Assembly: GCF_000420245.1 (NCBI RefSeq)
Contig: NZ_ATUO01000024.1
Coordinates: 1 to 32,611, forward strand
From: Psychromonas hadalis ATCC BAA-638
GTDB taxonomy: Bacteria; Pseudomonadota; Gammaproteobacteria; Enterobacterales; Psychromonadaceae
Reading direction: 5' to 3'
Length of the DNA: 32,611 bases
Positions 23,824 to 28,927 of the stretch are shown here, one piece after another (position 1 is the first letter of the stretch; each line of letters opens with the position of its first letter). A model generated the notes under the pieces. That model was not told the origin of the DNA, did not search any database, and saw nothing but the letters and a program-made list of their open reading frames with translations. Position numbers and translations under genes: made by a program.

Positions 23824-23871
23824 TGAACGCGTGTTCCTGTAAAATTATTACCTTTAATTTAAGACACTATT

Positions 23872-24081
23872 ATGACTAAACTCGACTTTTCAGCAATTAA
23901 TAAATCTTCTGCAAAATCGTTTAATGCACAGAAAAACATGATCAAAAAAATAGGAAAAGGGCAAACAGTACTCTGCACTACCTGCAAGCAACCACTGCAA
24001 TTAACGGTTTCAAGCAACCATGAAAGCGGACTAAGTTGCTCAAAAGGCTGTACTAACATTGCTCTCGAAGTGGAACTTTAA
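23872..24081 (+). CDS. Small four-cysteine protein, possibly zinc-binding
   Basis: A 69-residue hypothetical protein. A basic N-terminal half (LDFSAINKSSAKSFNAQKN) is followed by two cysteine pairs, CTTC and CSKGC, separated by about 20 residues, which looks like a small zinc ribbon (QTVLCTTCKQPLQLTV…GLSCSKGC). I do not recognise a family. There is no strong ribosome site (weak AAG). The last four bases overlap the end of the convergent LysR gene. The clean Cys spacing and high Lys/Ser content speak for a real gene. Confidence 0.6.
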   Translation: MTKLDFSAINKSSAKSFNAQKNMIKKIGKGQTVLCTTCKQPLQLTVSSNHESGLSCSKGCTNIALEVEL

Positions 24082-25007
24082 TATTGTTGTAAACTTATCA
24101 TTATTTCGCAGATAATACTTTTTACCCATTGATGATAATGGCTTTTTTGATGGCTATTATGCTGATAATAGAGGATATCACCACTGGTATTAAACTCACT
24201 TCTATCTACATCTAATAATGTTAAATAGTCTAGATCCTCGATATTGAGAAACTTTGAGGTTGGGCAGATACAGTCACTATTTTTGAGAATATTTAAAATA
24301 GTTGAAACTGATTGTGAACGTATTGAGACACTTGTTTCATAACCTTTACTTTTGTAAAATTGCTCAATTAATAAATTTTTTCCATTCCAACCTGGGACTA
24401 AATAAATAGCAAGTGGATAGCGTTGTAGTTTACTAATATTACAGGCTTGTTTACTGAGTGGATGATCTTTTCTGGCAATTATTTGATAGCTATCTTCTGC
24501 TATTTTCGTTGTAATGATGCCTTTAATTGTGATCGGGATTTGATAATTTATAGCGAGATCTAACTCACCTGATACTAATCTATTAATACTTTGTTCATCC
24601 CAATTCTCTAAATGCAGCGTAATATTTGGTGCAAGTTGACTTAATGTCTGGTGCAGACGTTCTACTAATGAATAAGTCATAAAAGGGTTCAGTGCTATTT
24701 TTAATATTGCATGGTGATTAAATGGATCAAAGGGAGAAAGCTCTGCCACCAATGTTGATAGTTGATCAAAAATAATGGGCAGACCTTGGCAAAGGATCTC
24801 ACCTTTCTCTGTTGGTTTTAAGCCATGGCGAGTACGTACAAATAGCTCATCATCAAAATGGTCACGCAAACGGCGCAGTGCACGGCTCACAGCCGGTTGG
24901 GTCATATTAAGGCGTTTTGCAGCCGTCACTGTTTTTCTTTCTTCTGCGATTACTTTAAATATTTTTAATAAATTTAAATCAAGCTGATTCAACATATTTT
25001 TACTCAT
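24078..25007 (-). CDS. LysR-family regulator beside the glycosyltransferase unit
   Basis: A 309-residue LysR-type regulator. The N-terminal HTH lies at about 7–66 (LDLNLLKIFKVIAEERKTVTAAKRLNMTQPAVSRALRRLRDHF), followed by the effector-binding domain with typical NPFMTYSLVERL and DLAINYQ segments. It is divergent from the three-gene unit that starts at 25131, with a 123-bp gap that contains a perfect TTATAAC-N6-GTTATAA palindrome, so it is likely to control that unit and itself. The inducer is unknown. The HTH region and the DELFVRTRHGLKPTE stretch place it in the NodD/LeuO-like branch, tentatively. Confidence 0.9.
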   Translation of the reverse strand: MSKNMLNQLDLNLLKIFKVIAEERKTVTAAKRLNMTQPAVSRALRRLRDHFDDELFVRTRHGLKPTEKGEILCQGLPIIFDQLSTLVAELSPFDPFNHHAILKIALNPFMTYSLVERLHQTLSQLAPNITLHLENWDEQSINRLVSGELDLAINYQIPITIKGIITTKIAEDSYQIIARKDHPLSKQACNISKLQRYPLAIYLVPGWNGKNLLIEQFYKSKGYETSVSIRSQSVSTILNILKNSDCICPTSKFLNIEDLDYLTLLDVDRSEFNTSGDILYYQHNSHQKSHYHQWVKSIICEIMISLQQY

Positions 25008-25027
25008 AATGATCTCGATTTTTTTAT

Positions 25028-25047
25028 TTATAACTATTTTGTTATAA
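25028..25047. promoter_or_regulatory. Palindromic operator between the LysR gene and the TackOD1-like gene
   Basis: TTATAAC-TATTTT-GTTATAA is a perfect inverted repeat with 7-bp arms. Its position 21 bp upstream of the LysR start and about 84 bp before the divergent gene suits LysR binding. Confidence 0.55.
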
Positions 25048-25069
25048 CTGGTATATAAAACAAGCTCTT

Positions 25070-25087
25070 TGTGAGATGTGCGTCACA
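25070..25087. promoter_or_regulatory. CRP-like palindrome with non-standard spacing
   Basis: TGTGA-N8-TCACA lies 44 bp before the start of the three-gene unit. The CRP consensus has a 6-bp spacer, so this is either a poor CRP site or one for another factor. Confidence 0.35.
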
Positions 25088-25130
25088 GTATATTATCTTT
25101 TATTAATATCAAAATGAATAAGAGGTATAG

Positions 25131-26468
25131 ATGGATATATATGGTTATCAGTTGAAAGACTCCAATCAACAGTTAAAAAATATAATTTCCTTCACTTCCA
25201 TCACTGAGTTAAAAGAGATGGTTAATATTGTTGTGATCATCGGGAGCGGTGAAACTGAGCAAGATAGTTTTTTAATGCAACTTCATCGTTTACCACACAG
25301 CTGGTCTTGGAAAATTTATACACAACAAGCAAGTTTATTCACGCCGCATCTGAGTGATGGTTTAATCAGTAATACTGATCTTGATAAAGCCATCGAAACA
25401 CACCAACAACAGTTTACTCTGATGGGGAAAAAACCAAAAGATAAATTGCTCGCTTGGTTATGGATGGACAGCCATCGTCAATTAGTGCCCTATAAGTCTC
25501 TTTTTAGCGCACAGATTTATAGCTATCCATTACTGGAGTCGTATATTGATCCGCACAGTAATCAATATTCTTACTTAACTGATTTCTTAAAAAAGGGATA
25601 TTTAGTAAAAACACAATTTGTCGATCGTGTGCGCAGTTGCTCTCATTGTGACAGTAACCACCTTAATTATGTAGAAGCTTGTCCTGCTTGCCATAGTAAC
25701 CATATTCACAGCAAAAATTCACTGCACTGCTTTACTTGTGGTTTTGTTGATCATGAAGATAGATTCAAAAAAGATAATCGATTAAGTTGCCCCAAATGTC
25801 TCACACAGCTTAAACATATTGGTGTTGATTACGATCGTCCACTGGAGGTACATGAATGCCTTGATTGTAATCATGACTTTATTGAAGCAGACACCGTTGT
25901 TAACTGCTTCAATTGTGCTAAAACGCATCAAATAGATAACCTTGTTATTGAGCACGTCAGTGTATTTAATCTTACCGAAAATGTCACAAATTACTTGTTA
26001 AGCAATACCTTCAATGATGCTCCCTCATTATTGTTAAAGGAATCAATTGAGCCTAGTTATTTCATCAGTCTATTATCATGGACAAATCGTTTAGCATTGA
26101 ATAGTGGTAACAGTGCATTACTACTGAATTTATCATTAGCTGGGCGACAAACATATATTAAGCTGCATGGAGAAGTGGCACTAAGTAAGTTAATTGAGGA
26201 GTTAAAATCTCGCATGTATCAGATATTTAAAGATACTGATGTGAGCTGTTTATATCAAAAAAATAAGTTATTGCTATTGTTACCGATGACCGATGCACAA
26301 TCATTGAATTTTTATCAGGTGAAATTAAATGAAATTCTGGCGCTGGTTAGTGTTGATATACTTTCTTTAGAGTTAGATGCATGGCAATTACCTATTACTG
26401 ATATGGAGAATAACGGTGCAGCTATCAACATGGAAGCTTGGTTAAGTAAGGCATTAAAAAATGTTTGA
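25131..26468 (+). CDS. TackOD1-like zinc-ribbon protein with degenerate GGDEF-like domain
   Basis: A 445-residue soluble protein with three visible parts. Residues 1–160 form an alpha/beta region of unknown fold. Residues 168–265 hold six CxxC pairs (Cys170/173, 184/187, 200/203, 220/223, 243/246, 259/262), enough for three zinc sites; this is the pattern of the TackOD1 metal-binding domain. Residues about 325–405 resemble a nucleotide-cyclase (GGDEF) fold: SALLLNLSL in the first strand, then GEVALSKLIEELKSRMYQIFKDTDVSCLY, then QKNKLLLLLPMTDAQ where an active enzyme would have GGDEF. The catalytic signature is lost, so no cyclase activity is expected. GAGG precedes the ATG. It overlaps the glycosyltransferase gene by 8 bp, so the two are coupled; a regulatory or assembly subunit of that synthase is likely. 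Confidence 0.75.
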   Translation: MDIYGYQLKDSNQQLKNIISFTSITELKEMVNIVVIIGSGETEQDSFLMQLHRLPHSWSWKIYTQQASLFTPHLSDGLISNTDLDKAIETHQQQFTLMGKKPKDKLLAWLWMDSHRQLVPYKSLFSAQIYSYPLLESYIDPHSNQYSYLTDFLKKGYLVKTQFVDRVRSCSHCDSNHLNYVEACPACHSNHIHSKNSLHCFTCGFVDHEDRFKKDNRLSCPKCLTQLKHIGVDYDRPLEVHECLDCNHDFIEADTVVNCFNCAKTHQIDNLVIEHVSVFNLTENVTNYLLSNTFNDAPSLLLKESIEPSYFISLLSWTNRLALNSGNSALLLNLSLAGRQTYIKLHGEVALSKLIEELKSRMYQIFKDTDVSCLYQKNKLLLLLPMTDAQSLNFYQVKLNEILALVSVDILSLELDAWQLPITDMENNGAAINMEAWLSKALKNV

Positions 26469-27774
26469 TTTTATTAATATTAGTCATGCAATTATTGAAT
26501 CACTTGGGCAAAATTTAGACTCTCTATTTATCTTTTTACCAGTATTTATTTTGATTGAACTGCCACTGGTGATCATGGGCTATTTAGGTTTAATGCACTG
26601 GGCATGGCGTAAAAAGCCAGTACAACTTAAGCGTACACCCTCTATCAGCTTTGTTATCACCTGTTACGGTGAGGGCCGAGATATTTTGCAAACAATTGAT
26701 ACGCTCATTGAGCAAGTTTACCCTGGAGATATAGAGGTTCTGCCTGTTGTAGATGGTGCGATTCAAAACAAAGATACCTATCAGGCTGCGCTTGAAGGGG
26801 CGAGAAAGCATCAAGGAAAAATACTACGGCGTGTGCGAGTTATCCCTAAATGGCAACGTGGTGGACGCGTTTCAACGTTAAATGCAGGGCTTGCCGCTGC
26901 ACGTAATGAGATTGTTATTAATGTCGATGGAGATACCTCTTTTGATAACGATATGTTATTGCATATGATCAATGAATTTCAAGATGAAAATGTGATGGCG
27001 AGTGGCGGGGCATTGCGGGTGCGTAATGATAAAGTGAACCTGCTAACCCGCATGCAATCGTTAGAATATATGATCTCTATGCAGGCCAATAAAACAGGCA
27101 TGTCAGAGCTTGGGCTGTTAAATAATATCTCTGGGGCATTTGGCGCTTTTCGTAAAGAGACTCTAAAACGTGTTGGTGGTTGGGATACCCATACGGCCGA
27201 AGATTTAGACCTAACCATGCGTTTAAAGCAGTACAAAACACGTAATCCCGAAAAAAAAATAGTATTTACTCCTCTTGCAGTAGGCCACACCGATGTGCCT
27301 GTTACCTTAAAAGATCTGACCCTGCAACGTTTACGTTGGGATGGGGATCTGCTATTTTTATACCTACGTAAACATAAAAAAGGATTGACACCTGCTTTGT
27401 TGGGCTGGAAAACATTTTTGTATACCCTTATTTATGGGGTGATTCAAAATACTTTATTACCTATATTGGTGTTGATATTTACCCTCTATTTTCTCTTCGC
27501 ATATCCATTTTATTTGCTGTTGTCGGTATTATTTGTTTTATATCTTCTATATTTAAGCTTTTTTTTACTTAACTATATTGTCTATCTAGTCTTAATTTCT
27601 GAGCGTCCTAGGCAAGATATAAAACTGTGTGGCTGGGTTTTTTTATACCCTTTTTATACCTACATGCTCCGTTTTATCACCGCATTTTCAGTGATCAATG
27701 AGATTGTGCGTAGAAGTCATGAAGAGTCCACGATGGCGCCATGGTGGGTATTAAAACGTGGCAATAAATTTTAG
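26461..27774 (+). CDS. Membrane processive glycosyltransferase, family 2
   Basis: A 437-residue inner-membrane GT2 enzyme of the cellulose/hyaluronan/PgaC-type synthase group. An N-terminal membrane helix (about 22–45) leads to a cytosolic GT-A domain with Asp98 (VVDG), the DGD metal motif at 156–158, the acceptor-site acidic pair Glu247-Asp248 (TAEDLDL) and the QRLRW motif (289–293) that marks processive synthases. Three to four membrane helices follow between 315 and 415. It overlaps the upstream gene and precedes a membrane fusion protein, similar to Alg8–Alg44. The sugar and the polymer cannot be read from sequence. Confidence 0.88.
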   Translation: MFDFINISHAIIESLGQNLDSLFIFLPVFILIELPLVIMGYLGLMHWAWRKKPVQLKRTPSISFVITCYGEGRDILQTIDTLIEQVYPGDIEVLPVVDGAIQNKDTYQAALEGARKHQGKILRRVRVIPKWQRGGRVSTLNAGLAAARNEIVINVDGDTSFDNDMLLHMINEFQDENVMASGGALRVRNDKVNLLTRMQSLEYMISMQANKTGMSELGLLNNISGAFGAFRKETLKRVGGWDTHTAEDLDLTMRLKQYKTRNPEKKIVFTPLAVGHTDVPVTLKDLTLQRLRWDGDLLFLYLRKHKKGLTPALLGWKTFLYTLIYGVIQNTLLPILVLIFTLYFLFAYPFYLLLSVLFVLYLLYLSFFLLNYIVYLVLISERPRQDIKLCGWVFLYPFYTYMLRFITAFSVINEIVRRSHEESTMAPWWVLKRGNKF

Positions 27775-27831
27775 TTATATCGACAGATAGCCCCGATTTT
27801 GAGTCTTCAACGTGTTAATAAATTTTAAGAG

Positions 27832-28875
27832 ATGATGATGAAAGTGAATTTTAAGTTACATAAACAGAGAAACCCGTCACAAGAGTCTGGTGTAAAGGTG
27901 AGTTACGGACAAACGAAACGACTGGGTTACCGAATACGTTGGTTTTTGATCCTGTTTTTAGTGTTAAGCCCTGTGGTGATGATCACTTATAAATTGGTTT
28001 ATCCCAACTTAGTGGATCAAGCACCTGCTATTTTAAGTTTTACCCCTATTGATATGGTTGCCCCTAAAGCGGGATTGATTAACATAAAAGTACGAAGTGT
28101 TGGAGACAGCGTAAAAAAAGGGGAGGTTTTGTATCAAATACAAGACAGATCCTTAGAGGCAGAGATCACTTTTTTAGAAACGGAAGTAGCGAAGTTTAAC
28201 GCGGATAGTTCTCAGCAGAAAACACGGTTGTTATATCAAGAGAAAGTAAGCATTGCTTATAAAAATTTAGTGGAGATGAAGAAGGTCTATAAACGTTATT
28301 TACATTTTTCTAAAATTGGGCAACTTTCAGCGATCGATTTTGCAGCGATTGTTAACCTTTATAATAACGCTGAAAAAGCGCTTTCTAGCGCTAAAGTTGA
28401 ACTGCAGGTGCATCAAACTAACTATTCATTGACGGGGCAATATGCAGATAGCTTACGTGCGGTAAAAAAAGCATTAGTAGTAAAAAAGGGAGAGCGTGAC
28501 GAGTTAACGGTTTATAGCCCTTATGATGCGTTTATTATTGAGATCAGTGTGATTTCAGGGCAGATGGTTAGCCAAGGTCAGTCACTGATGATGATTTCTG
28601 ATGCTAAAAAACAGCCTGAAGTGATTGCTTATTTGGATGCAAAATATATATTAAATAGCCAAGTAGGGCGAAAAGTGACTATTGAGTTTCCTGATGGTCG
28701 TGATTATGCAGGTATTATTGCACACCCGACGGAGCTGGCTTCTAAAATCCCATCACAGCTCTCTAAACCCTTTGAAGCACAAAAATCGATGATGAAAGTG
28801 GTGGTACATTTTGTAAAAGAGAGGCCAGCCGATTTTGAGTTGATGGAAGGGTTACCACTTAGCGTACTCTTTTAA
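27832..28875 (+). CDS. HlyD-type membrane fusion protein
   Basis: A 347-residue periplasmic adaptor with one membrane anchor at about 36–54. A biotinyl/lipoyl-like half (VAPKAGLINIKVRSVGDSVKKGEVLYQI), a helical hairpin (about 105–210) and the matching half (VYSPYDAFIIEISVISGQMVSQGQSLMMI) follow, then a beta-barrel domain. The pattern recalls the C-terminal part of Alg44 and EmrA/HlyD adaptors. It could connect the glycosyltransferase to an exit path; no outer-membrane porin is encoded beside it. Three ATG codons in a row open the gene right after AAGAG, so the third (27838) has the better spacing. It ends in a convergent hairpin before sdaA. Confidence 0.88.
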   Translation: MMMKVNFKLHKQRNPSQESGVKVSYGQTKRLGYRIRWFLILFLVLSPVVMITYKLVYPNLVDQAPAILSFTPIDMVAPKAGLINIKVRSVGDSVKKGEVLYQIQDRSLEAEITFLETEVAKFNADSSQQKTRLLYQEKVSIAYKNLVEMKKVYKRYLHFSKIGQLSAIDFAAIVNLYNNAEKALSSAKVELQVHQTNYSLTGQYADSLRAVKKALVVKKGERDELTVYSPYDAFIIEISVISGQMVSQGQSLMMISDAKKQPEVIAYLDAKYILNSQVGRKVTIEFPDGRDYAGIIAHPTELASKIPSQLSKPFEAQKSMMKVVVHFVKERPADFELMEGLPLSVLF

Positions 28876-28883
28876 TTAAAGTT

Positions 28884-28916
28884 GGCTCAGAACAATGATG
28901 TGAACTGAGCCGATTT
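28884..28916. terminator. Convergent terminator hairpin
   Basis: GGCTCAG (28884–28890) pairs with CTGAGCC (28905–28911), loop 14 nt, with GATTTTATT after it. It lies between the HlyD-type gene and the convergent sdaA. The T-tract is modest. Confidence 0.55.
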
Positions 28917-28927
28917 TATTGTAACTT

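Follow-up and report, generated by a model that had tools for sequence, protein, structure and literature searches.

A 32,611-nucleotide contig of Psychromonas hadalis ATCC BAA-638 (NZ_ATUO01000024.1, one of 351 contigs in a 3.98-Mb genome, analysed at its full length and hereafter called the window) carries three genes in tight order, encoding a protein with a TackOD1 zinc module (the switch protein), a family 2 glycosyltransferase (GT2; the GT) and a HlyD-type membrane fusion protein (the adaptor). From sequence comparison and structural models we propose, with a probability of roughly 55%, that this triad forms a compact, synthase-dependent system for polysaccharide secretion, which carries, in most of its family, a switch responding to cyclic diguanylate (c-di-GMP). 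In the copy found in the window, that response is doubtful. All three proteins match Pfam families: the switch protein matches PF18551 (TackOD1) at 209 bits against a curated cut-off of 32, the GT matches GT2 families (best E 1.5e-18) and the adaptor matches HlyD_3 (E 3.5e-11). The switch and GT genes overlap by 8 bp. These matches and the open reading frame (ORF) positions agree with an earlier note, made from the sequence alone, that had described a zinc protein, a GT2 enzyme with its motifs and a HlyD adaptor in tight order; its remark that PilZ is missing also holds, both for the three proteins in Pfam searches and for the contig. A profile search found no standard GGDEF match on the window contig. 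The rest of the genome contains 47 GGDEF stretches and seven PilZ stretches (one PilZ below cut-off), a sign of rich c-di-GMP signalling in P. hadalis.

Comparison with other genomes supports the TackOD1–GT–adaptor triad as one conserved system. We compared 24 loci from the order, nine further loci from the phylum, six plasmid loci (counted among nine of 18 plasmid records) and the best 80 of at least 561 species-level relatives, a choice that favours close relatives and in which some species entered twice. The order and phylum loci come from genomes above the family cut-off, with weak matches (four and three genomes, respectively) outside the sample. TackOD1 and GT genes lie side by side, on the same strand, in 23/24 order loci, 79/80 species-level loci and every phylum (9/9) and plasmid (6/6) locus; of the two loci that differ, one (L026, from a congener) has a broken TackOD1 gene and the other (L125) is truncated at a contig end. 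The adaptor gene directly follows the GT gene in 21/24, 56/80, 3/9 and 5/6 loci, respectively, including L096, in which the GT is split and the adaptor follows the second piece; L116 and L125 are cut by contig ends. In 21 species-level and three phylum loci a gene of about 2 kb stands between GT and adaptor, and in one species-level locus (L126) a 277-amino-acid gene does, the product of which has no Pfam match. The adaptor lies upstream in two order and two phylum loci (L055, L070, L172 and L173, where the sole adaptor match is upstream, that of L070 falling below the Pfam cut-off). It was not found in one species-level, one phylum and one plasmid locus, where the contig or record ends. In Methylocystis, the gene next after the GT is annotated as hypothetical. 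Distances among the three triad proteins correlate (r 0.86, 0.93 and 0.91; 0/999 permutations; 86 loci), as expected for joint inheritance, and species descent alone gives the same. The proposal, already made in the earlier note, that the three genes form one system thus stands: rather than lying apart in other genomes, the TackOD1 and GT genes are near-constant neighbours.

The system is patchily distributed. TackOD1 scored above cut-off in 5/60 relatives, 24/394 genomes of the order and 15/398 of the phylum, and in none of 14 control genomes; within the genus it was found in 2/24 genomes, one of them with a broken gene. Hosts of the triad include Vibrio, Aliivibrio, Aeromonas, Shewanella, Pseudomonas, relatives of Halomonas and some alphaproteobacteria. 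No match to the triad was found in phage records.

The switch protein combines a receiver-like domain, the TackOD1 module and a GGDEF-like domain, as judged from domain folds and the Pfam match. Its AlphaFold2 model, built with 51 relatives, has a mean predicted local distance difference test score (pLDDT) of 89 and a predicted template modelling score of 0.68, and no membrane helix is predicted in the protein. The C-terminal 150 residues form a GGDEF fold (Foldseek E 4.2e-7; VIA Z 14.4 over 142 residues, 2.9 Å) and also give a GGDEF sequence-profile match (E 2.9e-8); the dead cyclase fold suspected in the earlier note is thereby confirmed, with the GG(D/E)EF motif missing. Pfam adds a weak hint of PelD_GGDEF (E 0.05). 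Folded alone, the N-terminal 104 residues (pLDDT 90) match receiver domains: nearly all 50 VIA rows are receivers, the best being PleD (Z 9.9 over 104 residues, 3.1 Å). The receiver is mostly degenerate, because the phospho-Asp position holds an Asp in only 11/52 sequences. By VIA, the full-length model aligns with the receiver–GGDEF cyclases PleD, DgcR and WspR over 230–246 residues, with a root-mean-square deviation of 7.6–16 Å; such high values are expected when two domains sit differently.

The case for c-di-GMP rests on the inhibitory site (I-site). In diguanylate cyclases, product inhibition uses an RxxD motif with a further Arg (R359, D362 and R390 in PleD), as well as an Arg of a neighbouring domain (PleD R313) (PMC7288161, PMC8041772). 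We aligned the window protein with 107 relatives, excluding split copies by length, and counted residues among 94 sequences distinct in their C-terminal part. In alignment, the RxTD of the family coincides with RxxD in true GGDEF domains, and the site is kept: R367 in 90/94, D370 in 91/94, K/R398 in 93/94 and R324 in 91/94. Within the GGDEF-like domain R367, D370 and R324 rank highest in conservation, apart from a tie with W317, and the spacing from 367 to 398 (31 residues) equals that from R359 to R390 in PleD. By contrast, GG(D/E)EF is absent from the aligned C-terminal segments of the family. In the nine further phylum loci, which lie outside the 94-sequence count and were compared by eye, R-x-x-D stands at its place in eight and GG(D/E)EF in none. 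We infer that R324 corresponds to PleD R313, an equation weakened by the finding that such partner arginines occur at more than one place (PMC8041772). As a control, among the 47 GGDEF stretches of the P. hadalis genome, RxxD is present in 20/29 canonical and 2/18 degenerate domains, the two degenerate ones with RxxD being almost canonical; the control profile was seeded on 19 domains with both RxxD and GG(D/E)EF, so that very degenerate domains may misalign, and 2/18 degenerate rows have no letters there. Because only 2/18 degenerate control domains keep it, retention of RxxD after the loss of catalysis appears unusual. The I-site is kept without GG(D/E)EF, as in PelD and BcsE, and c-di-GMP gating is the best explanation for the family; a role for the switch protein in regulating the synthase is likely.

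Several observations weigh against a c-di-GMP-gated secretion system. The window copy departs at two family-conserved arginines, with K367 (giving KDTD) and N324, which makes its own c-di-GMP response uncertain. Three alphaproteobacterial copies (L073, L074 and L076) lack the I-site. Foldseek matches of the N-terminal model are weak (best E 0.012, a receiver; second E 0.087, BcsE; none at 0.001). RxxD might persist for structural reasons, given a control that is small and seeded on RxxD domains. Finally, the window insertion described below contains no outer-membrane channel gene. As for the Lys itself, the window copy is alone in having it at 367, the other three non-Arg sequences of the 94 having P, G and D, and shows no wider decay. 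Runaway decay of the window switch protein was considered and not seen, its identity falling within the range of other pairs at the same GT identity.

These departures would also suit a different arrangement. In it, the receiver-like and GGDEF-like parts would be ligand-free, the synthase would have the first protein as a subunit for structure or assembly, and regulation would be transcriptional, here through a divergently encoded LysR-type regulator. The altered I-site of the window, the unkept receiver Asp and the arrival of the LysR gene with the insertion all fit. We nevertheless consider it unlikely, because a domain that otherwise changes fast keeps its I-site residues best across the family, and because the divergent LysR gene is not a constant neighbour of the triad in other loci.

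The zinc module offers another possible input. Reading the sequence gives six CxxC pairs in the switch protein, and Cys 173, 184, 187, 203, 220, 223, 243, 246 and 259 together with His 199 are unvaried in 94/94 sequences. Such ligands, and a zinc-sensing diguanylate cyclase cited in PMC8461298, might favour the same secretion system with a first protein that senses metal or redox through its zinc sites, but we judge this improbable: the unvaried ligands equally fit structural zinc, no metal-handling theme recurs in the flanks examined, and the kept I-site would be without a role. The earlier note had suggested sensing of metal, redox or a nucleotide. The kept I-site strengthens the nucleotide option for the family, less so for the window copy with its K367 and N324; nothing was found in favour of metal or redox sensing.

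A possible role of the TackOD1 module is suggested by how the parts of the protein vary. In 398 pairs of relatives at a GT identity of 0.58–0.66, mean identity is 0.25 for the receiver, 0.47 for TackOD1 and 0.35 for the GGDEF part. In Palleronia, a TackOD1 protein has a receiver that matches Pfam Response_reg and is encoded beside histidine-kinase genes; on a plasmid of the haloarchaeon Halorussus halophilus (L179:5950-8911), a bare TackOD1 gene is followed by a DUF2334 gene and then a GT2 gene. Because sensors differ by lineage while TackOD1 and GT stay together, the sequences suggest that TackOD1 is the part that contacts the synthase. A bolder idea, which we hold tentatively and doubt more than we believe, is that TackOD1 serves GT2 synthases as their dedicated gate and that the sensors attached to it are exchangeable (a degenerate GGDEF for c-di-GMP in gammaproteobacteria, a Response_reg receiver in Palleronia and a bare TackOD1 in Halorussus), making the triad a modular, mobile polysaccharide machine whose input is swapped between lineages. 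Two observations speak against a universal TackOD1–GT link: a Haladaptatus TackOD1 protein has no GT annotated in the 12.5 kb of sequence compared, and archaeal TackOD1 proteins are reported in type IV pilus loci (PMC5847659). The same paper calls the function of TackOD1 obscure, and in the literature searched it is the one paper that contains the names TackOD1 and PF18551.

The second protein has motifs seen in processive synthases. Residues D98, D156, D158, D248, Q289, R290, R292 and W293 are the same in 99/99 distinct GTs, and E247 is kept in 94/99. The resulting ED...QRxRW pattern is typical of processive synthases. The best NCBIfam match is PgaC/IcaA, at 154.1 bits against a cut-off of 422.3, with NodC among the top matches; the GT lies below the cut-off of every named synthase model matched. 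Matches to PDB sequences are weak and include hyaluronan and chitin synthases, the best by E-value being an archaeal-type GT2 of unspecified role. That the GT instead glycosylates a lipid or small molecule, with the adaptor helping export, would be compatible with these sub-threshold scores, with the archaeal-type best match and with the failure of any polymer-related gene other than the TolC-like gene to recur beside the triad, but is the least probable alternative given the kept ED...QRxRW pattern and the PgaC/IcaA, NodC, hyaluronan and chitin synthase matches.

Part of a presumed export route is encoded beside the synthase. The periplasmic partner, of HlyD type, is present in the operon; its sequence has no match among PDB sequences at E 0.01. 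The N-terminal cytosolic tail of the adaptor looks similar in the window, L133 and L150, at the place where Alg44 has PilZ. Where relatives have the extra gene of about 2 kb ahead of the adaptor gene, its product (about 700 amino acids) matches outer membrane efflux proteins (OEPs) in 4/4 loci scanned, one just under cut-off, and 12 OEP stretches lie elsewhere in the P. hadalis genome. In a survey of the flanks of the listed clusters, no family recurred at a fixed place beside the triad, except this TolC-like gene within the operon. Nearby GGDEF/EAL genes, such as a CHASE-GGDEF gene 60 bp upstream in Aliivibrio (L077), were not used as support because such genes are abundant in these genomes. 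A galE-like gene directly follows the adaptor gene on a Rhodobacteraceae plasmid (L073:12445-13455) and may hint at the sugar; as a clue to it galE was rejected, being found in one locus only.

Taken together, these data point to the following mechanism for a c-di-GMP-gated secretion system. The GT would polymerise a sugar and move the chain through the inner membrane, from where the HlyD-type adaptor would lead it through the periplasm to a TolC-like channel. Some relatives have the gene for this channel within the operon; P. hadalis probably recruits a channel encoded at another genomic site. The switch protein would be cytosolic, with a degenerate GGDEF domain that, for the majority of family members, would bind c-di-GMP at the site that once served product inhibition. 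Probably via the TackOD1 module, this signal would then reach the synthase.

The triad looks, from its sequence context, like a compact, horizontally moving operon. The site was compared with three of the 23 other genomes of the genus. In these congeners truB and sda are separated only by one small ORF; collinearity with the window runs to about 24075 and resumes at about 28926, and the intervening segment of the window, with the LysR gene and the triad, is absent from this site (Table 1). The small ORF, with a CxxC pair (about 23870-24081), lies between truB and the insertion in the window and is present in the three congeners too. The window GT is 64% identical to its nearest relative, a Vibrio GT, and the switch protein 37% to its nearest, from Aliivibrio. 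On the 29-kb mobilizable plasmid pKAM345_3 of Aeromonas caviae (L071, L249), the order is switch, GT, TolC and HlyD, across the record start. The LysR gene of the insertion is LeuO-like and possibly encodes a transcriptional regulator of the triad, a control that we infer.

Table 1. Coordinates of the triad, its domains and the surrounding insertion in the window
Feature	Position	Strand	Basis
Insertion with LysR gene and triad, ~4.85 kb	approx. 24076..28925	.	Comparison with three congeners
LysR-type regulator gene, 309 aa, divergent from triad	24078..25007	-	Pfam HTH_1 and LysR_substrate
Switch protein gene, 445 aa (receiver-like, TackOD1, degenerate GGDEF)	25131..26468	+	ORF, Pfam, folds
Receiver-like domain, residues 1-98, phospho-Asp position not kept	25131..25424	+	Model, VIA, weak Foldseek
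TackOD1 zinc module, residues 98-281	25422..25973	+	PF18551, E 5.4e-62
Degenerate GGDEF domain, residues 295-445	26013..26465	+	Foldseek, VIA, profile
I-site position, KDTD (367-370) in window copy, RxTD in family	26229..26240	+	Alignment
GT2 glycosyltransferase gene, 437 aa, processive-synthase motifs	26461..27774	+	Pfam, NCBIfam, PDB matches, motifs
HlyD-type membrane fusion protein gene, 347 aa, one predicted membrane helix at ~residues 38-56	27832..28875	+	Pfam

Some copies of the triad are damaged. The GT gene is split or broken in L062, L096 and L079 and the switch gene in L110 and L113; L006/L007 and L026, from one congener, also carry a split or broken triad gene. Such genes reflect either loss of the system by mutation in places or assembly errors. 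In Aliivibrio fischeri emors.2.1, two triads (L080 and L085) lie about 14 kb apart on one contig.

No published description of a TackOD1–GT2–HlyD operon was recognised in the literature searched, the coverage of which excludes most subscription journals and all preprints. On the strength of sequences and models, we class the triad with the synthase-dependent polysaccharide systems; its switch protein is undescribed and has, across the family, the apparent build of a c-di-GMP receptor. The N-terminal receiver-like domain, the I-site of the relatives, their TolC-like gene and the insertion with the LysR gene go beyond the earlier note. If our reading is right, a matrix-polymer system of the hosts listed above has so far been overlooked, partly because public records annotate its switch protein as a 'diguanylate cyclase'. 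It would also bring a new kind of c-di-GMP receptor, a role for the TackOD1 domain, and a surface trait mobile between genomes, one copy of which sits on a mobilizable plasmid.

Among known systems, the parallel drawn in the earlier note with Alg8–Alg44 and PgaC–PgaD holds as an analogy of families and motifs; it goes less far for PgaC/IcaA–PgaD, the best NCBIfam match of the triad GT, yet one whose family cut-off the GT misses by far. A GT and adaptor layout also recurs in Sinorhizobium, where BgsB is the adaptor beside BgsA. BgsA, likened to the triad GT by description, is a c-di-GMP-activated GT that binds c-di-GMP itself (PMC5567048). Archaeal TackOD1 proteins share the Pfam domain of the switch protein and occur there with receivers, in type IV pilus loci (PMC5847659). 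Alg8–Alg44 resembles the triad in pairing a GT2 synthase with a membrane-fusion partner, but Alg44 carries PilZ (PMC8461298), whereas the triad adaptor has none in Pfam. PelD resembles the switch protein family in being a degenerate GGDEF protein with RxxD and a further Arg, encoded in a polysaccharide operon without PilZ, and is a c-di-GMP receptor; it differs in being a membrane protein with a GAF domain that works with PelE, PelF (a GT4) and PelG (PMC8461298), whereas the switch protein has no predicted membrane helix and a GT2 partner. BcsE, from the cellulose secretion system of Escherichia coli, has its own N-terminal domain and no TackOD1, and its synthase also has PilZ (PMC7439463). 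The switch protein gave no BcsE family match in Pfam at E up to 1, and BcsE was not among the VIA rows for the N-terminal model, an absence not taken as evidence; its receiver is among the best Foldseek matches of that model (probability 0.89, E 0.087). Like the switch protein, BcsE is cytosolic with a degenerate receiver–GGDEF tandem, and like the family it keeps RxxD; it senses c-di-GMP for a GT2 synthase (PMC7439463).

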